Shown: in pieces, positions 2,988 to 35,941 of the stretch
Layout: each line of letters starts with the position of its first letter
How positions within the stretch are numbered: the first letter of the stretch is position 1
From: a virus
Reading direction: 5' to 3' (one strand)
Virus record (IMG/VR): IMGVR_UViG_3300024308_000154
Coordinates: 1 to 35,941 of that record
DNA: 35,941 nucleotides
Position numbers and translations under genes: made by a program
The notes under the pieces: model-generated
Told to the model about the DNA's origin: nothing
The model's database searches: none
Seen by the model: the letters and a program-made list of their open reading frames with translations, nothing else

Positions 2988-4609
2988 TGGTTACCTGCCA
3001 GTCGTTGCCCTATTGCCGCGCCAGCTGTCTGCCCTGCGGCCCCAGCTGCCTCGGTGCCCGCCTGCATCATGAGCTGCTGCTGTGCGGCCTGCTGCTGTGT
3101 TTTCTGGCGCTGGTCGCGGAGGTCTGCCACCGCATCGGATGAGCGCATGACCTTCGCCGGTACGCCTAACGCTTCGCCCACTACGCGGCTGGCTTCATCG
3201 CTGTCCATGTTGTCCAGTATGTCGGGGTATGCCTGCGCCAACTGCATGATGTTCTGGCCATAACGCTCGATTGCCGTGACGTCTTCCAGCTTCTGGGCGC
3301 GTGCCAGAGGCGAGATGTAACGTACGTTGAAATTGGCGTTCTGCAGGCTCTCAGGCGGCGGGGAGAAAATGCCAGCGCGGAAAGCGATGCCAAAACAGCG
3401 CACAACCAGCAACTGGAGATATTCAGCCTGGAACCGGCCATACACCGGACCAAGCAGCTGGCGAATCAGCGCGACGCGCACGTGCACTTCGGTGGCGGTC
3501 ATGGCTGGCCCGTCCTGCGGCTGCAGTTGGTCGGCCATCATGATTTTGCGGATTGATGCCTGCAGGCGATCTTCTGCGGTAAATGCGACCTGGAAATCTG
3601 CACCGGTCAGCAACGGTTTCATGCTTTCGGTGCTGTTCGCCACGATGATGCGACGCGGACCGACCTTGACCGTACGCGGGTTGAGTACGCCGTCGTCTTC
3701 GGCAATCCACATGCCGGAGATAGCCAGATCCTGCGCGGCTTTCTCCATGCGTTTGGTTTCGTTCAGCTCTTTGCAGTCTGGCAGAGCATCGTATACCGGG
3801 CCGATTCCGTAGGAGCCGCCGGGGATTTTCATCCAGCGCGGAACGCAGCACGGGAATTCGTGATAGCCGGATTCGCGCACAATCTGCTTGTTGCTCACGT
3901 CGACGTTGTACGACGCAAAGCGCATGTTTTTCGCCAGGCGGGCGTTAACCATGTAGGTTTCACGCGGGAAAATGCAGTGCAGGAAATCAAATTTATCGTC
4001 GGGCTTTTTCTTCGCTGCGTCGCGGATCTTCTCGCTGACCTTGTCCGCGCCGAACTCTTTGATGGCCTGCTCAGCAGTCAGCTGGTAGCGGCGGTATATC
4101 GTGTCCACGATGCCATCCTTGCGGGTGGACGTGACATAGCACTGCGCCAGCGGCCATTGCTGGAAGGTGTAGCCGCCCTCCTCCCGGTCCTCGTCGATGT
4201 ACAGGACGAACCAGCCAGCGCATACCACGTCGAGGTTTGCCTCATAGCCCTCGGCGTCGAAGTTAGCCGCATGGATATTTTCCCATACCAGCGTGGCGCA
4301 CTCAGACAGCCAGGCTTTGGCGTCGTCTGGCAGCGATTCGCTGTCGAGGTTCAGCCACTGCGCGTTTGCCGGAGTCATGCCGGACATGAGCGCAGAGGCC
4401 AGCATGCGGGCGCTGTCGGTGGCGGTACCGTCCAGTAGCTTCGCCACCTTGTGTTTTGCACTCTGAGCGTCGAGCACTTCGTCAGAGAATCCCGCGCCGC
4501 GCAGCGGATAGGTGTAGTCATAGCACTCGCGCCAGACGCTTTCATGCTGCTGGCGGTTGGCTTTCAGCGTGTCGGAACGCTTAATCAGCTTAACGGCGAG
4601 TTCATCCAT
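2984..4609 (-). CDS. Portal (head-tail connector) protein, T7 gp8-like
   Basis: The 541-residue product matches the length of T7-type head-tail connectors (T7 gp8 is about 536 residues). Twelve copies of such proteins form the ring through which DNA enters and leaves the head. Typical segments are the N-terminal LIKRSDTLKANRQQHESVWRE with YDYTYPLR, DGTATDSARMLASALMSGMT around residues 57-77, and EVHVRVALIRQLLGPVYGRFQ in the second half. The C-terminus is Gln/Ala-rich (QQQAAQQQLMMQAG), with predicted coiled or disordered character. The start at 4609 lies three bases after the preceding stop. It is followed by an overlapping Bbp19-like gene and the scaffold gene. Confidence 0.92.
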   Translation of the reverse strand: MDELAVKLIKRSDTLKANRQQHESVWRECYDYTYPLRGAGFSDEVLDAQSAKHKVAKLLDGTATDSARMLASALMSGMTPANAQWLNLDSESLPDDAKAWLSECATLVWENIHAANFDAEGYEANLDVVCAGWFVLYIDEDREEGGYTFQQWPLAQCYVTSTRKDGIVDTIYRRYQLTAEQAIKEFGADKVSEKIRDAAKKKPDDKFDFLHCIFPRETYMVNARLAKNMRFASYNVDVSNKQIVRESGYHEFPCCVPRWMKIPGGSYGIGPVYDALPDCKELNETKRMEKAAQDLAISGMWIAEDDGVLNPRTVKVGPRRIIVANSTESMKPLLTGADFQVAFTAEDRLQASIRKIMMADQLQPQDGPAMTATEVHVRVALIRQLLGPVYGRFQAEYLQLLVVRCFGIAFRAGIFSPPPESLQNANFNVRYISPLARAQKLEDVTAIERYGQNIMQLAQAYPDILDNMDSDEASRVVGEALGVPAKVMRSSDAVADLRDQRQKTQQQAAQQQLMMQAGTEAAGAAGQTAGAAIGQRLAGNQ

Positions 4610-4612
4610 CAG

Positions 4613-4843
4613 TTACGCCCCCAGAGTATTTTTCTGCTGCGCTGCCTGCGCACCAGAGGACAGCAGAGAGCTGCCAGAATCAGCCGCGCCCTCTGCACCA
4701 CTGGCGAGAAGGGACGAGCCTTTCTTGCGCTTCTTGCGCGCTGCTGCATCTGCGTTTGCCGCTTTTGCCGCTGCATCGGCAGCTGCATCCGCTTCGGCCT
4801 GCGGGTCGGTCTGTACGACCTTTGGCGCTCCGCCTCCACACAT
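4613..4843 (-). CDS. Small Cys/Gly-start, Ala-rich phage protein of unknown function
   Basis: The 76-residue product begins MCGGGAPKVVQTDP, continues as an Ala/Asp-rich helical stretch and a basic patch (RKKRKKG), and ends with two related SSLL motifs (KGSSLLASGAEG and SGSSLLSSGAQ) before KNTLGA. Small proteins with MC-Gly starts and GSSLL repeats are common next to head or tail genes in tailed phages, but I cannot name a confirmed function. The ATG at 4843 has an AGAGGGGG ribosome site. It lies directly upstream of the portal gene with a three-base gap. A positional role as a small virion or tail assembly protein is possible but unproven. Confidence 0.7.
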   Translation of the reverse strand: MCGGGAPKVVQTDPQAEADAAADAAAKAANADAAARKKRKKGSSLLASGAEGAADSGSSLLSSGAQAAQQKNTLGA

Positions 4844-4857
4844 AACGATTCCCCCTC

Positions 4858-5301
4858 TTAGCCCGGAACGTGCCAGCCGTGTTCAGTCAGAACGGGCTTA
4901 CCCGTAACCGGCTGGCGTTTGCCCTCGTCGTTCGTCACGTAGCCCAGCGGCGCGGCAGGCTCCGCCGTGGTGGCTTTTTTAACGAGCTGGAGGAATTCGA
5001 GATTGTCGGTCAGCTGCTGGTCAGCAAGGTCGGTGTAACCCAGCGTTTCAAAGCGGGCGATGATGGCCGCGCCCTGCTCGTTGATGGTCCCCAGCAGAGT
5101 ATTGCGCGCGGTGGGTAACAACGCTTCTTCGCTGGCCTGAGGCTCCTCAACGGTGATTACCTGCTGCTCTGCGCGCTGACCGTCAGCGTTAAGCGTCTGG
5201 ATCTCAGTCGCGGTAAGGCGGTGCTCTGCGTCCGTCTGCTGTTCTGCGCCCGTTTCAGGCTCCTGCCCTGGTACTTCGACGGTTTTCTTTGGTCGGCCCA
5301 T
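4858..5301 (-). CDS. Conserved phage protein at the head of the late operon, unknown function
   Basis: The 147-residue product begins MGRPKKTVEVPGQEP, a short basic AT-hook-like start. It continues as a Glu/Gln-rich, probably disordered region to about residue 60, then a helical part (TLLGTINEQGAAIIARFETL, LTDNLEFLQLVKKA) and a C-terminal GYVTNDEGKRQPVTGKPVL segment. No enzyme motif is visible. I chose ATG 5301 because AGGAG lies upstream. The frame extends to 5367, but that extension reads through late dyad element 2 and is not coding. As the first gene of the portal-capsid block it may be a head decoration or assembly protein. Confidence 0.65.
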   Translation of the reverse strand: MGRPKKTVEVPGQEPETGAEQQTDAEHRLTATEIQTLNADGQRAEQQVITVEEPQASEEALLPTARNTLLGTINEQGAAIIARFETLGYTDLADQQLTDNLEFLQLVKKATTAEPAAPLGYVTNDEGKRQPVTGKPVLTEHGWHVPG

Positions 5302-5578: not shown

Positions 5579-5854
5579 TCATGGTGCCAGACGCTTCGAT
5601 CGCCAGGCGTACACAAAGCGCCGTGATGTAACCTGCGCAGGCAGTTCAGAGCGCGGGCGCTGTGTGACGTAGCACCAGAAATCTATCAACGCTTCGCCCG
5701 TGTGATGGTTCGGCGCTGCGCCCTGCTTCCAGCCGATGATAGCAGACTTCGATACGTCGAGCTCTCTGGCAATCTCCTGCAGGGGGATGCCGCTGCGCGT
5801 GATGTCGTTAATCACCCGGAACCAGTCTGTTTTGAACGTTGCGACAACTGGCAT
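5579..5854 (-). CDS. Small helix-turn-helix protein, candidate late or replication regulator
   Basis: The 91-residue product contains a clear helix-turn-helix at about residues 24-46 (GIPLQEIARELDVSKSAIIG followed by WKQG), and a C-terminal RFVYAWRSKRL basic tail. It belongs to the broad XRE-like group of short phage regulators and has no cleavage or dimerisation domain of the CI type. The ATG at 5854 has a GAGGTGA ribosome site. It is the last leftward gene before the late operon and lies between the 9-bp repeat cluster (5990-6163) and late dyad element 2 (5350-5365). On context it is the best candidate to bind one of these repeats. Direct evidence for its target is absent. Confidence 0.72.
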   Translation of the reverse strand: MPVVATFKTDWFRVINDITRSGIPLQEIARELDVSKSAIIGWKQGAAPNHHTGEALIDFWCYVTQRPRSELPAQVTSRRFVYAWRSKRLAP

Positions 5855-5970: not shown

Positions 5971-6163
5971 TAAATTACATGTTCATTGCTAGACCACCTG
6001 TGACCACCTAGACCACTATTTTCTAACCTTTCCCCAAATCGACTTATATATATATATGGGGTTATTAGTAAAAAGGTGGTCTAGGTGGTCTAGGTTGGCT
6101 TTCGCCTTAAATTACAGTACGTTGCCGCTAGACCACCAAACTAGCTCAGGTGGTCTAGGTGGT
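5971..6163. repeat. Cluster of TAGACCACC / GGTGGTCTA 9-bp repeats around an AT tract: candidate replication origin
   Basis: Forward copies TAGACCACC lie at 5990-5998 and 6129-6137, with a variant TAGACCACT at 6009-6017. Inverted copies GGTGGTCTA lie at 6075-6083, 6084-6092 and 6149-6157, and partial units at 6001-6008 and 6158-6163. A (TA)n tract occupies 6045-6057. Two of the units sit inside longer imperfect direct repeats (5971-5998 and 6108-6137), both starting TAAATTACA. The array is next to the 3' end of the primase-helicase gene and contains no convincing gene. An iteron-type origin is the leading interpretation; an operator array for the adjacent HTH protein is the alternative. Confidence 0.6.
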
Positions 6164-8332
6164 ACTAGTTTTTACCCAAACGCGTATCTGTTTACCGTTT
6201 ACAAAGCGCCTATCTCGCAAATACCCGCAGTTTTGCAAAACATTACCGATTCGCATTTCTTCGCGTTTTCCAATATTGCGAGAATCGAGCCCAATCGCTT
6301 CTTTCAACACGTCACTAGTTAGTAAAAATTCGCAGTTTCGCGGAATGTCGTTAGTCATCAGGTCAGGAGTGTCGAGCCATTTCTCTACCGTTTCGAGCCA
6401 CGCGTCCTTAATGGTGTACTGCTCGTGGACACTCGCACCGAGGCGCTCAGCATCGCGGAACTGGATGCCGCCGAGGCGCTTAAACGTCTCGCGGGCCTCA
6501 GCCCACAGCAAAAGGAGGTCGGTTTTTATCGCTTTCACGTCGACTTTCGACACCTCCACGGGCAACCACCGGCGGTTACCGGTCTTGTCGGCGAGGAATT
6601 CGTCCTCGTTGGTGGTACCGACGAACACCAGGCGACGCGGGAACTGGGTAGCGAACTCCCGGTATTTAGGGATCCAGTTCTCATGCGTGCGCGTCACGAA
6701 TGCCTTGATGGATTCGAGCTCTTTGGTATTAAGGCCGCGCAGCTCGCCAATCTCCGCCACCAGGCGACCGCGCATCTTGCGTGCGAGGTCATCGTCTTTC
6801 TCAGCGAACGATATCTCAGTGAAGAACGCCGGGTCGGGGCTCAGCGCTTCCACGCCGGAGGACTTCCCGCAGCCCTGAGGACCGACGAGGATCGGCACCA
6901 TATCAGCTTTGACACCGGGCTCCAGCACCCTGCCCGCCAGCGCCGTCCACATGTACATGGACACCGCGCGGGTGTATGGCGTGTCGGCGGTACCGAAGTG
7001 CGTATGGTAGAAAGTTTCGATACGCGGCACGCCGTCCCACTCCAGCCCGTTAAGCCAGGTGGTCGCCGAGTCGAAAGGCTGTTCGTCAGCGGCCAGCAGC
7101 ACCACGTCGCGTATCAGCTCACGCCCGACAGGCTTAAAGCCTCGCTTTTCCATCGTGATGCGCAGGCGCGCATAGTCCGCATCGGTGAACGCCTGCCACT
7201 GGCCGGAGCCAGCCTGGGCGAACATGATTTCGTCGCGGAACTGGTCAAAGCGAATATCGATGTCCACGAAGTCAGGACGCACAACGGCTTTGGCCGCGTT
7301 GCTGATGGTGGCCTCGATGCGGCCCCATTTGTCGCGTTCGAACGCCGGCAGCGGTAAAGGCTCAGCCACTTCGGTGCTGGTCAGGTCTTCGAAATCGTCG
7401 TTGCGGGTCCCGATGGCATTAAGGAAATCGCCGTCATCGCGGTGTGCACAGCTGGCGTGCAGGCACTTGAAATGGCCCTGCTCAAAGCCCGCGGTACCGC
7501 CCGGGAAGTAAACCGTGCTCGTCGGGTCGCCGCCGGTGCTGTGGCCGTCTTCGAACGGGCAGCGGATATAACGCTCGCCGTTCGTGCCGTCCAGCAGCGT
7601 CCAGCCGTTCGCGTCGAGGTATTCGGCTGTATCATCCGTGGCGCCGGGTGTGAACGTTGAGCGGTCGCGCATCTTCGTGCTACCCGCTTCGGTGGTGACC
7701 GACACAGGCAACTGTTCCGCCAGTCGCTGCCACAGAGTTTCGAGCTGGTCAGCAGTTATGGCTGGGGGCTCGTCCGGCAGACCGCCGTCCCATTCAATAC
7801 GCGCGCCGCTGCTGTGTGTACCGCAGGCAACGAATTGTTGGCCGTTGGCCAGCAGCTCGATAATCCCCATATCGCCCGCCAGACGGTGGATGCGCTTACG
7901 GAAATCACCCTCTACGGCGAGCAGGTACAGGCATTTGTTGCTGTTGGCGCGCCAGCGACGCGGCGGCAACTCGCCAAGCAGCTGCACCAGCGTTTTGCGA
8001 ATATCGGCCTGGATGTCTTCGTCTTCGCTGTCGCAGTCCAGCGCCAGCCAGCCATGACCAGTGCGCACACAGATGCCGTAATCCGGTTCGTTCGACCAGC
8101 GGGCAAAGTCATGCTCAGTAACGACATGCTCGGTCCACTGAGCAATGCCGGTGGCCAGTCGGTCGCGGTTATAGAGGCTCGGCGTCTTGCCCAGCGCTTT
8201 CAATTTACTATTCGGGGATATGGTCGCACCCGGGTTGCACACGACCGGCAGCAGCTGGTCAGTGCGCCCCAGCACCAGATCGAAGTGGAACCATTCGTCA
8301 GGCGTCGCCCCCCAGATCTTTTTCTCTGGCAT
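6155..8332 (-). CDS. Primase-helicase: prim-pol N-terminus fused to a VapE-type SF3 helicase
   Basis: The 725-residue protein has two parts. Residues 1-200 form a bifunctional primase/polymerase domain with the acidic pair in LALDCDSED (about 97-105) and a later GTHSSGARIEW. A Cys/His segment (about 258-297: RCPFEDGH, HFKCLHASCAHR) looks metal binding. The C-terminal half is a VapE/D5-like helicase: WDGVPRIETF, Walker A GPQGCGKSS (484-492), Walker B LVAEIGEL (about 524) and motif C VFVGTTNEDEF (569-579), followed by NRRWLPVEV. It should load at the origin, unwind and prime. It is read leftward three bases after the Cro-like gene. Its 3' end includes one unit of the 9-bp repeats. Confidence 0.9.
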   Translation of the reverse strand: MPEKKIWGATPDEWFHFDLVLGRTDQLLPVVCNPGATISPNSKLKALGKTPSLYNRDRLATGIAQWTEHVVTEHDFARWSNEPDYGICVRTGHGWLALDCDSEDEDIQADIRKTLVQLLGELPPRRWRANSNKCLYLLAVEGDFRKRIHRLAGDMGIIELLANGQQFVACGTHSSGARIEWDGGLPDEPPAITADQLETLWQRLAEQLPVSVTTEAGSTKMRDRSTFTPGATDDTAEYLDANGWTLLDGTNGERYIRCPFEDGHSTGGDPTSTVYFPGGTAGFEQGHFKCLHASCAHRDDGDFLNAIGTRNDDFEDLTSTEVAEPLPLPAFERDKWGRIEATISNAAKAVVRPDFVDIDIRFDQFRDEIMFAQAGSGQWQAFTDADYARLRITMEKRGFKPVGRELIRDVVLLAADEQPFDSATTWLNGLEWDGVPRIETFYHTHFGTADTPYTRAVSMYMWTALAGRVLEPGVKADMVPILVGPQGCGKSSGVEALSPDPAFFTEISFAEKDDDLARKMRGRLVAEIGELRGLNTKELESIKAFVTRTHENWIPKYREFATQFPRRLVFVGTTNEDEFLADKTGNRRWLPVEVSKVDVKAIKTDLLLLWAEARETFKRLGGIQFRDAERLGASVHEQYTIKDAWLETVEKWLDTPDLMTNDIPRNCEFLLTSDVLKEAIGLDSRNIGKREEMRIGNVLQNCGYLRDRRFVNGKQIRVWVKTSTT

Positions 8333-8335
8333 GGG

Positions 8336-8548
8336 TTACGCCTTTTTGTCGTTTTGTGAGCCGTGCAACAGCCAGTTAGGGTCGCAATCAAGCGCAACGG
8401 ATAATTCAAGAAGATAGCGAGGCCGAGAAATAACACCGCTTTCGATCCTGTTGATGGCCTGCTGACTAACCCCTGTTAGCTCAGCCAGCGTGACCTGCGT
8501 CATTTTGAGCTCTTTACGTCGCTCTTTTAATCGGGTAGCCAGAGTCAT
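8336..8548 (-). CDS. Cro-like XRE-family regulator
   Basis: The 70-residue product is a single HTH_3 domain: RLKERRKELKMTQVTLAELT, then GVSQQAINRIESG, RYLLELSVALDCDPNWLLHG. It shows clear relatedness to the N-terminal domain of the divergently encoded CI (both share GVSQQ.I..IESG and LL.L..AL.C.P.WLL.G), as expected for a Cro/CI pair binding the same operators. The start at 8548 has GAGG eight bases upstream; an alternative ATG at 8566 overlaps operator sequence and lacks a ribosome site. It is the first gene of the leftward early operon, directly before the primase-helicase. It probably represses cI and trims early transcription. Confidence 0.85.
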   Translation of the reverse strand: MTLATRLKERRKELKMTQVTLAELTGVSQQAINRIESGVISRPRYLLELSVALDCDPNWLLHGSQNDKKA

Positions 8549-8558
8549 AGTTATCACC

Positions 8559-8580
8559 TCATACAATTTTAGTGGTATTT
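8559..8580. promoter_or_regulatory. CI/Cro operator OL1-like
   Basis: Half-sites CATACAA and TGGTATTT flank a 6-bp spacer (TTTTAG), the same geometry as the better copy at 8604-8625. The site overlaps the -10 of the leftward promoter. Confidence 0.7.
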
Positions 8581-20491: not shown

Positions 20492-20854
20492 ATGTTAAAG
20501 TTATTCGCCAGGTACACATCGATAGGTGTCATCAATACGCTCATCCACTGGGTGGTGTTTGCCATTTGTATTTACGTTTTCTTTACAGGTCAGGCCCTGG
20601 CTAACTTCGCTGGATTTGTTGTCGCTGTATCATTCAGCTTCTTTGCAAATGCCCGATTCACCTTCAAGTCTTCTACAACGACTATGCGCTATATGCTTTA
20701 TGTCGGGTTTATGGGCTCCCTGAGCGCTGCAGTTGGTTGGGCTGCGGATAAGTCTGGTCTGGCACCTATCATCACTTTAATTCTGTTCTCCGCCATCAGT
20801 CTGGTGTGCGGCTTTATCTATTCAAAGTTCATTGTCTTTAGGGATGCGAAATGA
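20492..20854 (+). CDS. gtrA: GtrA-type bactoprenol-linked glucose flippase
   Basis: The 120-residue protein has four predicted transmembrane helices ([20 protein letters not shown]; the segment starting [45 protein letters not shown]) and the GtrA family end SKFIVFRD. GtrA flips undecaprenyl-phosphate-glucose to the periplasm for O-antigen modification. It overlaps gtrB by four bases. The ATG at 20492 overlaps a TATAAT (20488-20493), and no clear ribosome site precedes it, so the exact start or the promoter is uncertain. Confidence 0.92.
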
Positions 20855-21771
20855 AAATTTCTCTGGTCGTTCCGGTGTTTAATGAAGAGGAAGCAATTCC
20901 AATCTTCTATAAAACGGTTCGTGAGTTTGAGGCATTACAGCAACATGAAGTCGAAATCGTCTTCATCAATGACGGCAGCAAAGACGCCACAGAATCAATT
21001 ATTAACGCGCTTGCTATTGCTGATCCGCTTGTGGTTCCACTGTCGTTCACTCGTAACTTTGGAAAAGAGCCTGCTCTCTTCGCCGGTCTTGACCATGCTA
21101 CCGGTGAAGCGATTATCCCGATCGATGTAGACTTACAGGACCCTATCGAAGTCATTCCTCATCTGATAGAGAAATGGCAGGCCGGTGCTGATATGGTTCT
21201 GGCTAAACGCTCTGATCGCTCTACAGATGGCAGACTGAAGCGCAAGACCGCTGAATGGTTCTATAAGCTGCACAACAAAATCAGCAACCCTCAAATTGAG
21301 GAAAACGTTGGTGACTTTCGTCTGATGTCTCGCGACGTTGTCGAAAACATTAAGCTCATGCCAGAACGAAACCTGTTCATGAAGGGCGTTTTGAGCTGGG
21401 TTGGCGGTCGTACTGATGTAGTGGAATATGCCCGAGCAGAACGTGTTGCAGGCAGCACAAAATTCAACGGTTGGAAGTTGTGGAACCTTGCCCTTGAGGG
21501 GATCACGAGCTTCTCAACCTTCCCTCTGCGGATGTGGACGTATATCGGCCTGTTTGTTGCCGGCGCTGCATTCCTGTACGGTGCGTGGATGATTTTCGAC
21601 ACTCTGGTGTTTGGAAATGCTGTTAGAGGGTATCCGTCACTTCTTGTTTCTGTGCTATTTCTTGGGGGTATTCAATTAATTGGAATTGGAGTTCTCGGGG
21701 AGTATATCGGAAGGATTTATGTTGAAGTCAAGAAAAGACCTAGATACGTACTGAAAGGCAAAAAACAATGA
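20851..21771 (+). CDS. gtrB: GtrB-type bactoprenol glucosyltransferase
   Basis: The 306-residue protein starts [20 protein letters not shown] and carries the GT2 family features [26 protein letters not shown] and DVDLQDP (the metal and UDP-glucose site, about residues 91-97). It ends with two transmembrane helices ([18 protein letters not shown] and [20 protein letters not shown]). It transfers glucose from UDP-glucose to undecaprenyl phosphate on the cytoplasmic face. Its start overlaps the gtrA stop, and its stop overlaps the next gene, giving one conversion operon. Confidence 0.94.
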
Positions 21772-23249
21772 TTAGCAAATCTTTTTTATGGACTTATCGA
21801 TGGTCATTACTGGCCGCTGCTTTCACGTCTCTTCTTTATATTTTACCATTTATTGTTCATGAAAATTACATAATTGATGACTGGCTTCGATCTGATACTG
21901 GCGTTACAGCTTGGGAAGATAACGCCAGACCTCTTGCCAGTGTGATTATGTGGCTATTCTCCCTCAGTACGTCTGGATTCAGGTTCTTTGGTGACGGGGT
22001 TCTGCTGGACACTTTCCCATTCACTTTGATAGCGTCAACATTTTGCATTGTTCTTGCTGCATTGATTGTCGTAGAGAGGATTTCTATACGTTCAAATGTT
22101 CTTGTTGCAATTTCATCGATTTCTCTTCTAACAAGTCCTTTTTGGATCGGGAACATGCTATTCAGACATGACTCATTCATCATGGGTCTCTCTGCATTGT
22201 CTGCTGTTTGTTTTTCAATTGTTCTTTTAAACTCCGGGCCAAAGAGATATTTTTGGGGTGTAGCATTAGGATTTGTGGTTTTTACTACATACCAGGCATC
22301 AGTTAACGTCATATTCTCAACGATGTTATTGATAATATGCTCTAACTTATATTCTGGAGAGCATGTCAAAAAGCAGGCCCCTTATGTTATAAGGTGCGCT
22401 ATTTCACTGATTATTTCCGCAGTACTTTATAAACTATGTGTGAAGCATGTTATATCCCTAAGTGAGTATACTCAAAGCCACGAAAGCCTGGTGTCTTTCG
22501 ATATGAATGGCCTTAAACGGATCGGAGAGAATTCAAGTAACTTCTATGCCATATTCAGAGATGCGATGAAGGGATTCAATGGCGTTGTCACTTGGGTAGT
22601 TATGTCTGCATCTATTGTTCTTGGAGTCTTCCTGTCAAAAAGGCGCGGGCTAAACTTGCCATCAGTAATTGTGATCACAATCACTCCAGTAGCGCTTTTC
22701 TCATTAACGGCTGGGATAATGCTTATCTTGCAAAATCCAGTCGCATCCTCCCGCGTCATGATCGCCTTTGGGTTCGTATTAATTTATTTTTGCTGGTTGC
22801 TGGATAAATACCCATTCAGGTTAAAGATGATATTACCGGTTACTTTAGTGCTTTGCTCATTCTCGTTGTCATCTACAGTGTCTGGTGTTGTAAATGACAT
22901 GCAAAGGCTTGATAGATTTGTCGCGTCCTATGCAGCAGAAAAACTGTATGAAAATGGTTACAAAAAGGGAATGAAGGTGTACATCTTTGGTGGACCTTCA
23001 TATCCACCAAGCGTGGAAAGATCACTTTCAGCCAGACCATTCCTCAAAGACTTTGTTTACTCTTCTTTTGCAAATGGAAGATTCAAACACAGTCTCATGA
23101 AACAATACGGGATCATCTCATCACCTCCTTCAGGGCAGGACTTTTGGGACAGGGACAGGAGGATGAATTCCAGCACGGTTGTTTATTCTGACAGACTGAT
23201 CATGATCTATCGCTTAAAGGATGAAATGGGATTTAGGGTTTTGAAGTGA
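21768..23249 (+). CDS. GtrC-like serotype-specific O-antigen glucosyltransferase
   Basis: The 493-residue polytopic protein has about nine to eleven hydrophobic helices and, near the start, [13 protein letters not shown], whose acidic pair is typical of the GtrII (Glucos_trans_II) family. [14 protein letters not shown] follows, then [12 protein letters not shown]. The last ~110 residues form a periplasmic domain ([20 protein letters not shown]). These enzymes attach glucose from the flipped lipid carrier to a specific O-antigen sugar. It is the third gene of the gtr operon and is visibly more AT-rich than flanking genes, consistent with replacement by horizontal transfer. Which sugar and linkage it makes cannot be read from the sequence. 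Confidence 0.85.
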
Positions 23250-33519: not shown

Positions 33520-33969
33520 TTACACCTCTTTTGAATAAAGCAGGCCTGTACGGGACAGGCCGAGACGTGAATACAAATCACCAGTGCGCTCTTCATGCAC
33601 GCCCGTGGTGATACCCATATTTATGATTGCGGCGCCATGCTCTTCAGCCCAGGTGATAAAGGCTTTCGCGAGACGCGGGCCCGCCGTGCCGCCACGATGC
33701 TCAGGCGCAATAAACAGCCCGTATTCAAAGGCCATGAGCTGACGGCTGAACCACTGTTCAGCAATCCCACCGGCCAGCCAGCCGATTACAGCACCGTCTT
33801 TTTCTGCCACCAGCAGACAGCCGGCAGGAGATGAAATAAGAGTGCGGGCGAGTTCCGCACATTTTTCTTCGTCGAATGGCGAATTCTGTGAATAGAGGGA
33901 CTCGATATACATGCGCGCCCCCAGTTCGATCAGCGCCGGGATATCCCCGGTTTTTGCGTTACGTACCAT
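33520..33969 (-). CDS. GNAT-fold protein in the position of T7 gp13
   Basis: The 149-residue product is a GNAT acetyltransferase-type domain: N-terminal MVRNAKTGDIPALIELGARM, central GCLLVAEKDGAVIGWLAGGI, the acetyl-CoA loop-like FIAPEHRGGTAGPRLAKAFI and C-terminal VHEERTGDLYSRLGLS. The loop is not the perfect Q/RxxGxG/A: it reads HRGGTAG, so activity is uncertain. In T7, gp13 lies at the same place and has been noted as GNAT-like. ATG 33969 follows the tail tubular B stop by one base. A longer frame extending to 34176 is antisense-like noise over the tail gene. The role could be assembly or acetylation of a virion or host protein. Confidence 0.82.
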   Translation of the reverse strand: MVRNAKTGDIPALIELGARMYIESLYSQNSPFDEEKCAELARTLISSPAGCLLVAEKDGAVIGWLAGGIAEQWFSRQLMAFEYGLFIAPEHRGGTAGPRLAKAFITWAEEHGAAIINMGITTGVHEERTGDLYSRLGLSRTGLLYSKEV

Positions 33970-33970
33970 G

Positions 33971-35941
33971 TCAGCCCCCGTTACTGGTGAACGTGAAAAT
34001 AATTGCGAGAAGGTGGAATGGCAGCGGCTGGCGCTGCTGGATAAGCAGGGTATCTTCCCCGCGCTCCCAGCCGAGTTTTCCCCAGAAATGATCGCCGGTG
34101 AAAAGTGGCGCGGGCTGGTTGAGGATTTTTGGTCCGAACCGTCGGAACGGTATGACCTGGCCGTTACACTCTGCACCAGTGGTTTCGAGGAAACGCATTG
34201 TCACTTCGCTGGTGCGCTTCTTCGCGTTCTGAGTGGTGCCTTCAGTGGTGGCAACCTCTGGCGAAAGCGTCTCAATCGTGCTTTCGAAGTGCAGACCAAT
34301 TTCCACGCTTTTCGCCGGGCGTGACAGGGTGATTTGACCTGAGGAAACTGTGTGCTGCGGCATAACAGCGCCATCGGCCACCACATCAACCGTCTGCCCC
34401 TCAAGGTGAGCAAGACCGGACCACGTGACAGACCCTTCGCTACTGGTGCCGGTAACTGCGGCATCGGTAAAAAGATTGTTGTCGAACACCTCGACGTAAC
34501 GAACGGTTTGGCCGTTTACCTCACGACGGACGATCGCATAAACCACATCGTCGGTATCGGATGGAATTGTCGCCACCGACTCAAACGCGCCGGCAGTGAC
34601 CTGACGAGACCAGGCAATGACATCCTGCGCACGGTCGATAGCCATCGTGACCGCAACGCCATCAGCCCGAACCATCCAGATAAACGCATCTGGCTGTTGC
34701 TGGTATGCCATGTCCAGCACGCCACCCGCGGTGATATGTTCGGCCAGCACAGTCATATCGTTGGCGGAATAGGAAACAAAGCTGTCAGGGTCGTAAGCTA
34801 CTGCGTAGAGCTTACGGCCAGCACGCTGCACAAACATGATCTCGGTACCAACGCGCACCGGGCGGATCCCGTTGCAGCCGTACGGACTCGGGTTTTTCAC
34901 CGAGATATTGGTCGGTGTTATGGCCGCATCATTACCGGAGGTGATCGTAAACTCGCCGCCATAGGTGAGCGCGATCAGGGTATTCATCTGCGCCAGATGC
35001 ACAATCGGGTTGAGCTGGTCAGAAGAAAGCGTGAAGCTGATCGCGTCATCATCCTCGGTGCCAATCTCAAAGGACAGATAAACGCCCGTTTCACTCCACC
35101 AGATTGTTTGCGGGTACTTCGGCGAACCGGCAAGAACAAGCCGCTGCTGGTAAAGCGTCACCGCACCGGGATAGCCAAAATCGTCGGTCCAGACGGTATC
35201 CTCGCGCGTCCACGATCCCGGTGACGCTGCCTGCGTTGCCGTCAAATCGCTGCGGATGGTACCGACGGCAATTTGCGCACTGGTGATGCTCTTTATCAGC
35301 ACCAGACCGTCATTAAGGCGAACGTAAGAACCCACATCCTGAGCAACCCAGCCCGTGCCGGTGAATGGTGGGCTTGGGTTATCACCCGGATCCGCATCGC
35401 TCAGGGTCAGGGTAATTTCAGAGCCCACGAACTCTTTGACGGATGGCTTACACCATTTCTGCGGTGTATCGCGTACCTCGTCGAACGGCTCAACGATGAA
35501 TGGTGCAGGCTCAAGCACCCAGTCAGTTTGACCACGGCGCTGGAGGCGGTGAGGTTTCACAGACTGATGCACCAGAAACATGGTGTCAGCGCCCTGGACA
35601 TAATTCACGGCGGGCAGCATGTCAGAGGTATAGGGGCTGGCGATTTCGTACGGCGTGTTGTCTTCGTTGACCAGCTGCTTGCCGTTCTGAAAAATGCGCA
35701 TGTAGCCGTCACCGAACTCCAGCATATATGCCTGCGACCGATTGAATACGTAAGGAATGAGCCGTGATTTTTTATTGCCATATTTGGTCGCAGCTGCAAA
35801 GCGGGTGCCTGGTCTGCGGACCACGCCGCCCTGCACTACCACCACAGCGTTTTCGATAACCTTCGCACCGTTGGCGTAGCGGGCGATATCGACACGCCCC
35901 ATAAGGCGCAGGGAAACTTCGCCTGCGGTGAAATTGGTTTT
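33971..35941 (-). CDS. Tail tubular protein B (T7 gp12-like nozzle), main part
   Basis: From the window edge the frame gives 656 codons plus stop; six N-terminal residues lie at 160-177 beyond the join, so the intact protein is 662 residues. The family hallmarks are at the start (GRVDIARYANGAKVIENAVV, GGVVRRPGTRFAAATK), followed by SRLIPYVFNRSQAYMLEFGD and, further on, YPGAVTLYQQRLVLAGSPKY with PQTIWWSETG. GP12-type proteins form the tail nozzle and contact the tailspikes. In this copy codon 17 is CTG (Leu), where the copy at 1-177 has CCG (Pro). Confidence 0.92.
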   Translation of the reverse strand, partial: KTNFTAGEVSLRLMGRVDIARYANGAKVIENAVVVVQGGVVRRPGTRFAAATKYGNKKSRLIPYVFNRSQAYMLEFGDGYMRIFQNGKQLVNEDNTPYEIASPYTSDMLPAVNYVQGADTMFLVHQSVKPHRLQRRGQTDWVLEPAPFIVEPFDEVRDTPQKWCKPSVKEFVGSEITLTLSDADPGDNPSPPFTGTGWVAQDVGSYVRLNDGLVLIKSITSAQIAVGTIRSDLTATQAASPGSWTREDTVWTDDFGYPGAVTLYQQRLVLAGSPKYPQTIWWSETGVYLSFEIGTEDDDAISFTLSSDQLNPIVHLAQMNTLIALTYGGEFTITSGNDAAITPTNISVKNPSPYGCNGIRPVRVGTEIMFVQRAGRKLYAVAYDPDSFVSYSANDMTVLAEHITAGGVLDMAYQQQPDAFIWMVRADGVAVTMAIDRAQDVIAWSRQVTAGAFESVATIPSDTDDVVYAIVRREVNGQTVRYVEVFDNNLFTDAAVTGTSSEGSVTWSGLAHLEGQTVDVVADGAVMPQHTVSSGQITLSRPAKSVEIGLHFESTIETLSPEVATTEGTTQNAKKRTSEVTMRFLETTGAECNGQVIPFRRFGPKILNQPAPLFTGDHFWGKLGWERGEDTLLIQQRQPLPFHLLAIIFTFTSNGG
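35783..35941. repeat. Terminal direct repeat, right copy (pairs with 1-159)
   Basis: A 158 of 159 match to the window start; the single difference is A at 35910 against G at 128. See the left copy for interpretation. Confidence 0.92.

Follow-up and report, generated by a model that had tools for sequence, protein, structure and literature searches.

Positions 5990–6163 of the DNA analysed here very probably constitute a phage replication origin, with the adjoining gene encoding its dedicated initiator and the wing of that protein reading the iterons by the mechanism proposed below. The iteron unit differs even between close relatives in a set of about 90 phages and prophages akin to this one, and only the C-terminal wing of the initiator changes in step with it. 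The DNA (hereafter the window) is the entire IMG/VR virus record IMGVR_UViG_3300024308_000154, 35,941 bp in length, and its relevant features are as follows.

5579–5854, minus strand: HTH protein (PHROG 16553) encoded across the origin from the initiator, used as a control; the same gene adjoins different units
5990–6017, plus strand: right-hand iteron array, on the far side of the core, with units at 5990–5998 and 6009–6017 and a degenerate unit, GTGACCACC, at 6000–6008
6030–6066, no strand: conserved AT core that has CCCC...GGGG arms and includes a TA run (6045–6057)
6075–6098, minus strand: left-hand iteron array with a 9-bp period, comprising 6075–6083, 6084–6092 and a degenerate third copy at 6093–6098
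6129–6163, no strand: outer inverted iteron pair (6129–6137 and 6149–6157) with a partial unit (6158–6163), forming a hairpin across the primase stop codon
6155–8332, minus strand: putative replication initiator of 725 aa, with a primpol domain, a VapE/D5 superfamily-3 helicase domain (PF05272, E = 2.4e-60) and a C-terminal winged helix
6170–6319, minus strand: C-terminal winged helix, residues 672–721, predicted with AlphaFold2 (mean pLDDT of about 76–89 per 10-residue block)
6176–6211, minus strand: codons of the wing residues Arg708 (6209–6211), Gln715 (6188–6190), Ile716 (6185–6187), Arg717 (6182–6184) and Trp719 (6176–6178)
8336–8566, minus strand: Cro-like HTH protein encoded upstream of the initiator, used as a control; no covariation with the unit

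The repeat region and its phage

The repeat region contains five exact copies of TAGACCACC and one variant, TAGACCACT, arranged around a 13-bp TA run. The plus-strand units lie at 5990–5998, 6009–6017 (the variant) and 6129–6137 and the inverted units at 6075–6083, 6084–6092 and 6149–6157, which bears out the first-pass annotation of three units per orientation, one variant included, within 175 bp; the actual extent is 168 bp (5990–6157). The TA run and the partial units beside the full ones, also noted at that stage, are located at the positions listed above, and the true iteron period is 9 bp, head to tail. A unit had further been placed within the 3' end of the neighbouring gene. A partial unit does lie inside the last codons, but the full unit at 6149–6157 straddles the stop codon (6155–6157). 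The longer direct repeat TAAATTACA is likewise present in the window, but it is probably incidental, since the second copy is already missing from L003, a relative that is 98% identical.

Allowing up to one mismatch, the entire 35.9-kb record holds eight matches to TAGACCACC, six of which are inside the repeat region. The maximum 9-mer multiplicity in 5971–6163 is 6, whereas 1000 dinucleotide shuffles averaged 2.3, with at least one of them likewise reaching 6; chance is excluded as the source of the repeats mainly because the layout is conserved in relatives. A sliding scan allowing one mismatch detected a second stretch with a 9-mer multiplicity of 6 at 4601–4893. GC skew, proposed earlier as a check, showed no clear switch at the repeats, only local effects, and provided no usable origin signal.

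The outer inverted pair forms a hairpin (RNA fold z = −2.9 in the window and −3.7 to −4.6 in three relatives) that is kept in relatives, each with the unit of its own phage. This hairpin may terminate or attenuate transcription and so limit transcription into the origin. An intrinsic terminator at the end of the primase gene was considered and rejected; the hairpin is real, but a consensus scan found no terminator at that place.

The window encodes portal, capsid, tail and internal virion proteins, a large terminase, an integrase and a CI/Cro switch, and the element is a complete temperate phage. Its virion genes, large terminase and integrase set it apart from a phage-inducible satellite of the PICI type, which lacks most virion genes and depends on a helper. 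A gtrAB O-antigen module is also encoded, and the gtrA/gtrB/gtrC-like O-antigen conversion cluster at 20492–23249 is AT-richer than the remaining phage. In addition, the virion gene block encodes a GNAT acetyltransferase domain (33520–34176), flanked by internal virion genes on one side and nozzle/tail genes on the other.

The probable initiator and related origins

The neighbouring gene encodes a prim-pol/VapE fusion, as first annotated, with a PHROG assignment of helicase/primase. When a profile of 34 relatives was compared with the PDB, the sole sequence match was the SaPI Rep-type helicase 7pds_A (E = 2.2e-41), making this the nearest solved relative and, together with PF05272, identifying a VapE-like helicase domain homologous to SaPI Rep. 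The N-terminal primpol domain carries DxD and His motifs (PHROG 1156 primase), and residues Asp99, Asp101 and His173 are invariant in the 34 sequences, although no Pfam primpol match was found in the initiator at E < 0.001. In the AlphaFold2 model, the C-terminal domain has a helix-helix-strand-wing-strand topology, consisting of a helix (672–680), a recognition helix (689–701) that is nearly invariant among relatives, and two strands (704–711 and 714–721) with a short wing tip between them. A Foldseek search of this domain against the PDB returned nothing below an E-value of 0.001 and only weak matches, some of them to winged-helix regulators, and was dropped as proof of the fold; we assign a winged helix with moderate confidence.

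Relatives of the primpol-VapE gene that are 50–98% identical have the same layout directly 3' of the gene; they come from viral contigs, bacterial genomes, named phages (Yersinia, APSE, Caulobacter and Acidovorax) and prophages of E. coli. Read in the orientation of the gene, with D and R denoting direct and inverted units, the array typically runs D D (at the stop codon), R, D D D, AT core, R R R. Most relatives have three head-to-tail copies in the left-hand array, and the right-hand array is likewise RRR in most of them, often with a degenerate middle copy. Among close relatives in the main clade, the TA run and, in gene orientation, its CCCC side are almost constant whatever the unit, and past the last iteron the sequence changes without regard to the unit. 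The AT core at 6030–6066 is a probable DNA-unwinding element.

The location of the array next to the late-gene block, with small terminases a few kilobases downstream in some relatives, could point to a packaging (pac/cos) site read by the small terminase. However, the array stays with the primase-helicase gene while the gene on its far side varies among relatives (the HTH protein, antiterminator Q or others), and it is also found on plasmids that have no annotated packaging genes. We therefore set the packaging reading aside as extremely improbable.

Small circular plasmids of 10–15 kb in which vapE is the sole annotated replication-type gene possess, after that gene, iterons, an AT-rich stretch and then inverted iterons. 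The Klebsiella plasmid pRHBSTW-00995_5 (L337) and the E. coli plasmid pLAO97 (L338), both non-mobilizable and within this size range, have, downstream of the VapE gene, an AT-rich core flanked by iterons of the GGGTGGAAC or GGCTGGCCC type, and the VapE helicase appears to be their replication protein. The 77-kb circular record of the Enterobacter sp. E76 plasmid pE76_003 (L242) contains a phage module of the VapE family of the window with a TGTAACCAC origin and is possibly a phage-plasmid.

PICI origins are described as lying directly 3' of the gene for the initiator, with an AT-rich region between two sets of iterons; this organization was stated in 2018 to be common to no other known replicon (PMC6092414). 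Plasmids carrying the rep-ori region of EcCICFT073 replicate and are maintained, so that this origin is proven to be functional (PMC6092414). We read the EcCICFT073 locus sequence directly. Its unit, CTGTCTACC, has 9 nt as in the window, its direct and inverted units follow a similar order around the core, and an inverted pair lies just past the stop codon of the pri-rep gene. The origin in the window is likewise immediately 3' of its initiator-helicase gene. The first-pass proposal of a probable origin with a satellite-like layout is thus supported by relatives, plasmids and a proven PICI origin. The EcCICFT073 initiator, however, is a D5_N protein with no detectable sequence similarity to the VapE-type initiator of the window, and PICIs and SaPIs are satellites whereas the window element is a complete phage. 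Although this type of origin is already known, its occurrence in complete phages and plasmids appears to be new within the literature searched.

Other systems offer partial parallels. The helicases of SaPI and SCCmec bind iterons just downstream of their own genes through the C-terminal domain, with SaPI Rep binding apparently as two hexamers (PMC7581432). SCCmec Cch2, a D5-related helicase whose C-terminal domain binds direct repeats in this way (PMC7581432), differs in having its primase on separate proteins, only three iterons and a different unit. The P4 alpha protein, according to work cited in PMC4234260, is a primase-helicase fusion whose winged-helix domain binds origin repeats; in this comparison, made by description rather than by sequence, the P4 primase differs in being of the Toprim type. 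In pRN1 (ORF904) and crenarchaeal plasmids, the origin is just downstream of a primpol-helicase gene (PMC4234260), but the pRN1 origin is a stem-loop rather than a set of iterons around an AT core.

Covariation of the wing with the iteron unit

The iteron unit occurs in 15 core types among the relatives, including TAGACAACC, TGTACCAAC, TGTACCCAC, TGGAACCAC, TGTTACCAC, TGTATCCAC and TGTCCCAAC in addition to TAGACCACC and the TGTAACCAC unit mentioned above. The copies within one origin change together and largely agree inside each phage, and parsimony on a tree built from residues 1–640 only requires 54 unit changes. The unit was assigned by hand in a few irregular arrays (e.g. L030, L059, L064 and L084), and the mapping covers the units whose phase could be assigned, to the exclusion of those of the distant Gilliamella clade.

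Of all protein columns, those at the extreme C terminus have the highest mutual information with unit type. Among close pairs, defined as less than 12% different over residues 1–640, the amino acid at residue 715 is different in 94% of the pairs whose units differ and in 0% of those that share a unit, against a background of 7% and 6%, respectively. The corresponding values are 96% and 19% for residue 716, 66% and 0% for residue 708, 62% and 0% for residue 717, and 54% and 0% for residue 719. The strings formed by residues 708, 715, 716, 717 and 719 fall into 24 classes, and the class correctly identifies the variable unit bases for 89 of 90 sequences, while 5000 random sets of five columns assigned at most 0.69 of the sequences. 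When bases 3, 4, 5 and 7 were predicted from the nearest sequence of another clade, the wing achieved 0.87, compared with 0.48 for residues 1–640, 0.52 for the recognition helix and 0.48 at random. Phylogeny-aware sign tests, on traits picked after the alignment had been seen, gave 8:0 for G4 with Arg708, 8:0 for AGA with Gln715, about 8:0 for C7 with Trp719 and 8.6:0 for T3 with Val, Leu or Met at 715. The clearest contrasts are MTRIF with TACCA against MTRIW with TACCC, QQRVF with AGACA against QQRVW with AGACC, and KMRIF with TCCCA against KQRIW with TCCCC. There are exceptions: APSE-type phages combine Trp719 with A7, against the Trp719/C7 rule, and LVCRW is found beside two different units, one of which lies in a mixed array.

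Three neighbours of the array served as controls, namely the Cro-like protein, the CI-like repressor and the far-side ORF, and none of them showed covariation with the unit. HTH proteins are encoded on either side of the repeats, and iterons can also serve as autoregulatory sites, so an operator array for one of these regulators in place of an origin had to be weighed; binding of the repeats by a transcription regulator only had also been named at first pass as an outcome that would overturn the origin call. In the best column of any of the three proteins, however, the difference between unit-different and unit-same pairs was only 0.12–0.23, compared with 0.94 for residue 715 of the initiator, whose winged-helix tip does co-vary. 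Moreover, the window, L004, L008 and L009 have the same downstream HTH gene and yet four different units. This control test and the variable neighbours make the operator reading very unlikely, and it was discarded.

The association could also arise at a true origin by hitchhiking, in which recombination swaps a short block of wing and iterons without the wing reading the unit. The wing lies within about 230 bp of the iterons, and synonymous differences at codons 705–714 rise from 0.25 between sequences with the same unit to 0.54 between those with different units, while codons 691–704 hardly change. The wing and iterons thus appear to have been partly exchanged as one cassette, as judged from these synonymous differences, and inside the main clade linkage by itself accounts for some of the association. 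It nevertheless leaves unexplained the recurrence of identical residue-base pairings in diverged clades whose codon spellings mostly differ. These clades are more than 20% diverged, and codon identity between same-unit pairs is 0.51 in the wing against 0.43 elsewhere in the gene, the codons being mostly unrelated. Furthermore, determinant strings that are exactly common to different clades all occur with the same variable bases, Trp or Phe at position 719 tracks C or A at base 7 in several clades, and the edges of the cassette coincide with the start of the wing and the last iteron, with a constant TA core inside. We consider it unlikely, on these grounds, that hitchhiking explains the whole pattern.

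A proposed code and its implications

In the preferred reading, namely an origin recognized by its own initiator, the C-terminal winged helix would bind the 9-bp iterons, which are oppositely oriented on either side of the AT core, and two helicase rings would assemble face to face. The AT core would then melt, the helicases would load themselves and the primpol domain would prime bidirectional synthesis. We infer from the covariation that binding of the winged helix to the origin repeats is sequence-specific, with the wing (residues 708, 715–717 and 719) reading the variable unit bases 3, 4, 5 and 7 and the invariant recognition helix probably reading the constant part C6/A8/C9. Concerted change of wing and iterons would generate mutually distinct replicons. 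It is reasonably likely that this amounts to a natural, largely modular code, in which the iterons are specified one base at a time by four to five wing residues and not by the recognition helix (719 for base 7; 715, 716 and 708 for bases 3–5), with diversification having yielded at least 15 potentially orthogonal phage replicons able to coexist in one cell. Two prophage contigs with one IMG genome number, L003 (2837389702_000004) and L051 (2837389702_000003), have the units TAGACCACC and TGGAACCACC, respectively, with matching wings; this single IMG genome would fit distinct replicons residing side by side.

Conceptually, the closest precedent is the iteron-related domain of geminivirus Rep, for which a comparative amino acid-base code between the initiator and rapidly diversifying iterons has been described (PMC12548392 and its ref. 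9), although that Rep is unrelated and acts in rolling-circle replication in a eukaryotic host. No prior report of wing-iteron covariation was found in the literature searched, which mostly excluded subscription journals, and within it the hypervariable unit with its matching wing appears to be new.

Self-loading D5/VapE helicases are common in phages, satellites and plasmids, and the wider question addressed here is how each recognizes its own origin. The present analysis extends the PICI-type origin to complete temperate phages and cryptic plasmids. It also provides a natural mutational series of initiators that are more than 90% identical elsewhere but differ in their wings and have matching iterons, which brings origin recognition within reach of tests that need only a few oligonucleotides. 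If the code is true, it would supply a set of orthogonal replicons and account for how related prophages escape replicating one another.
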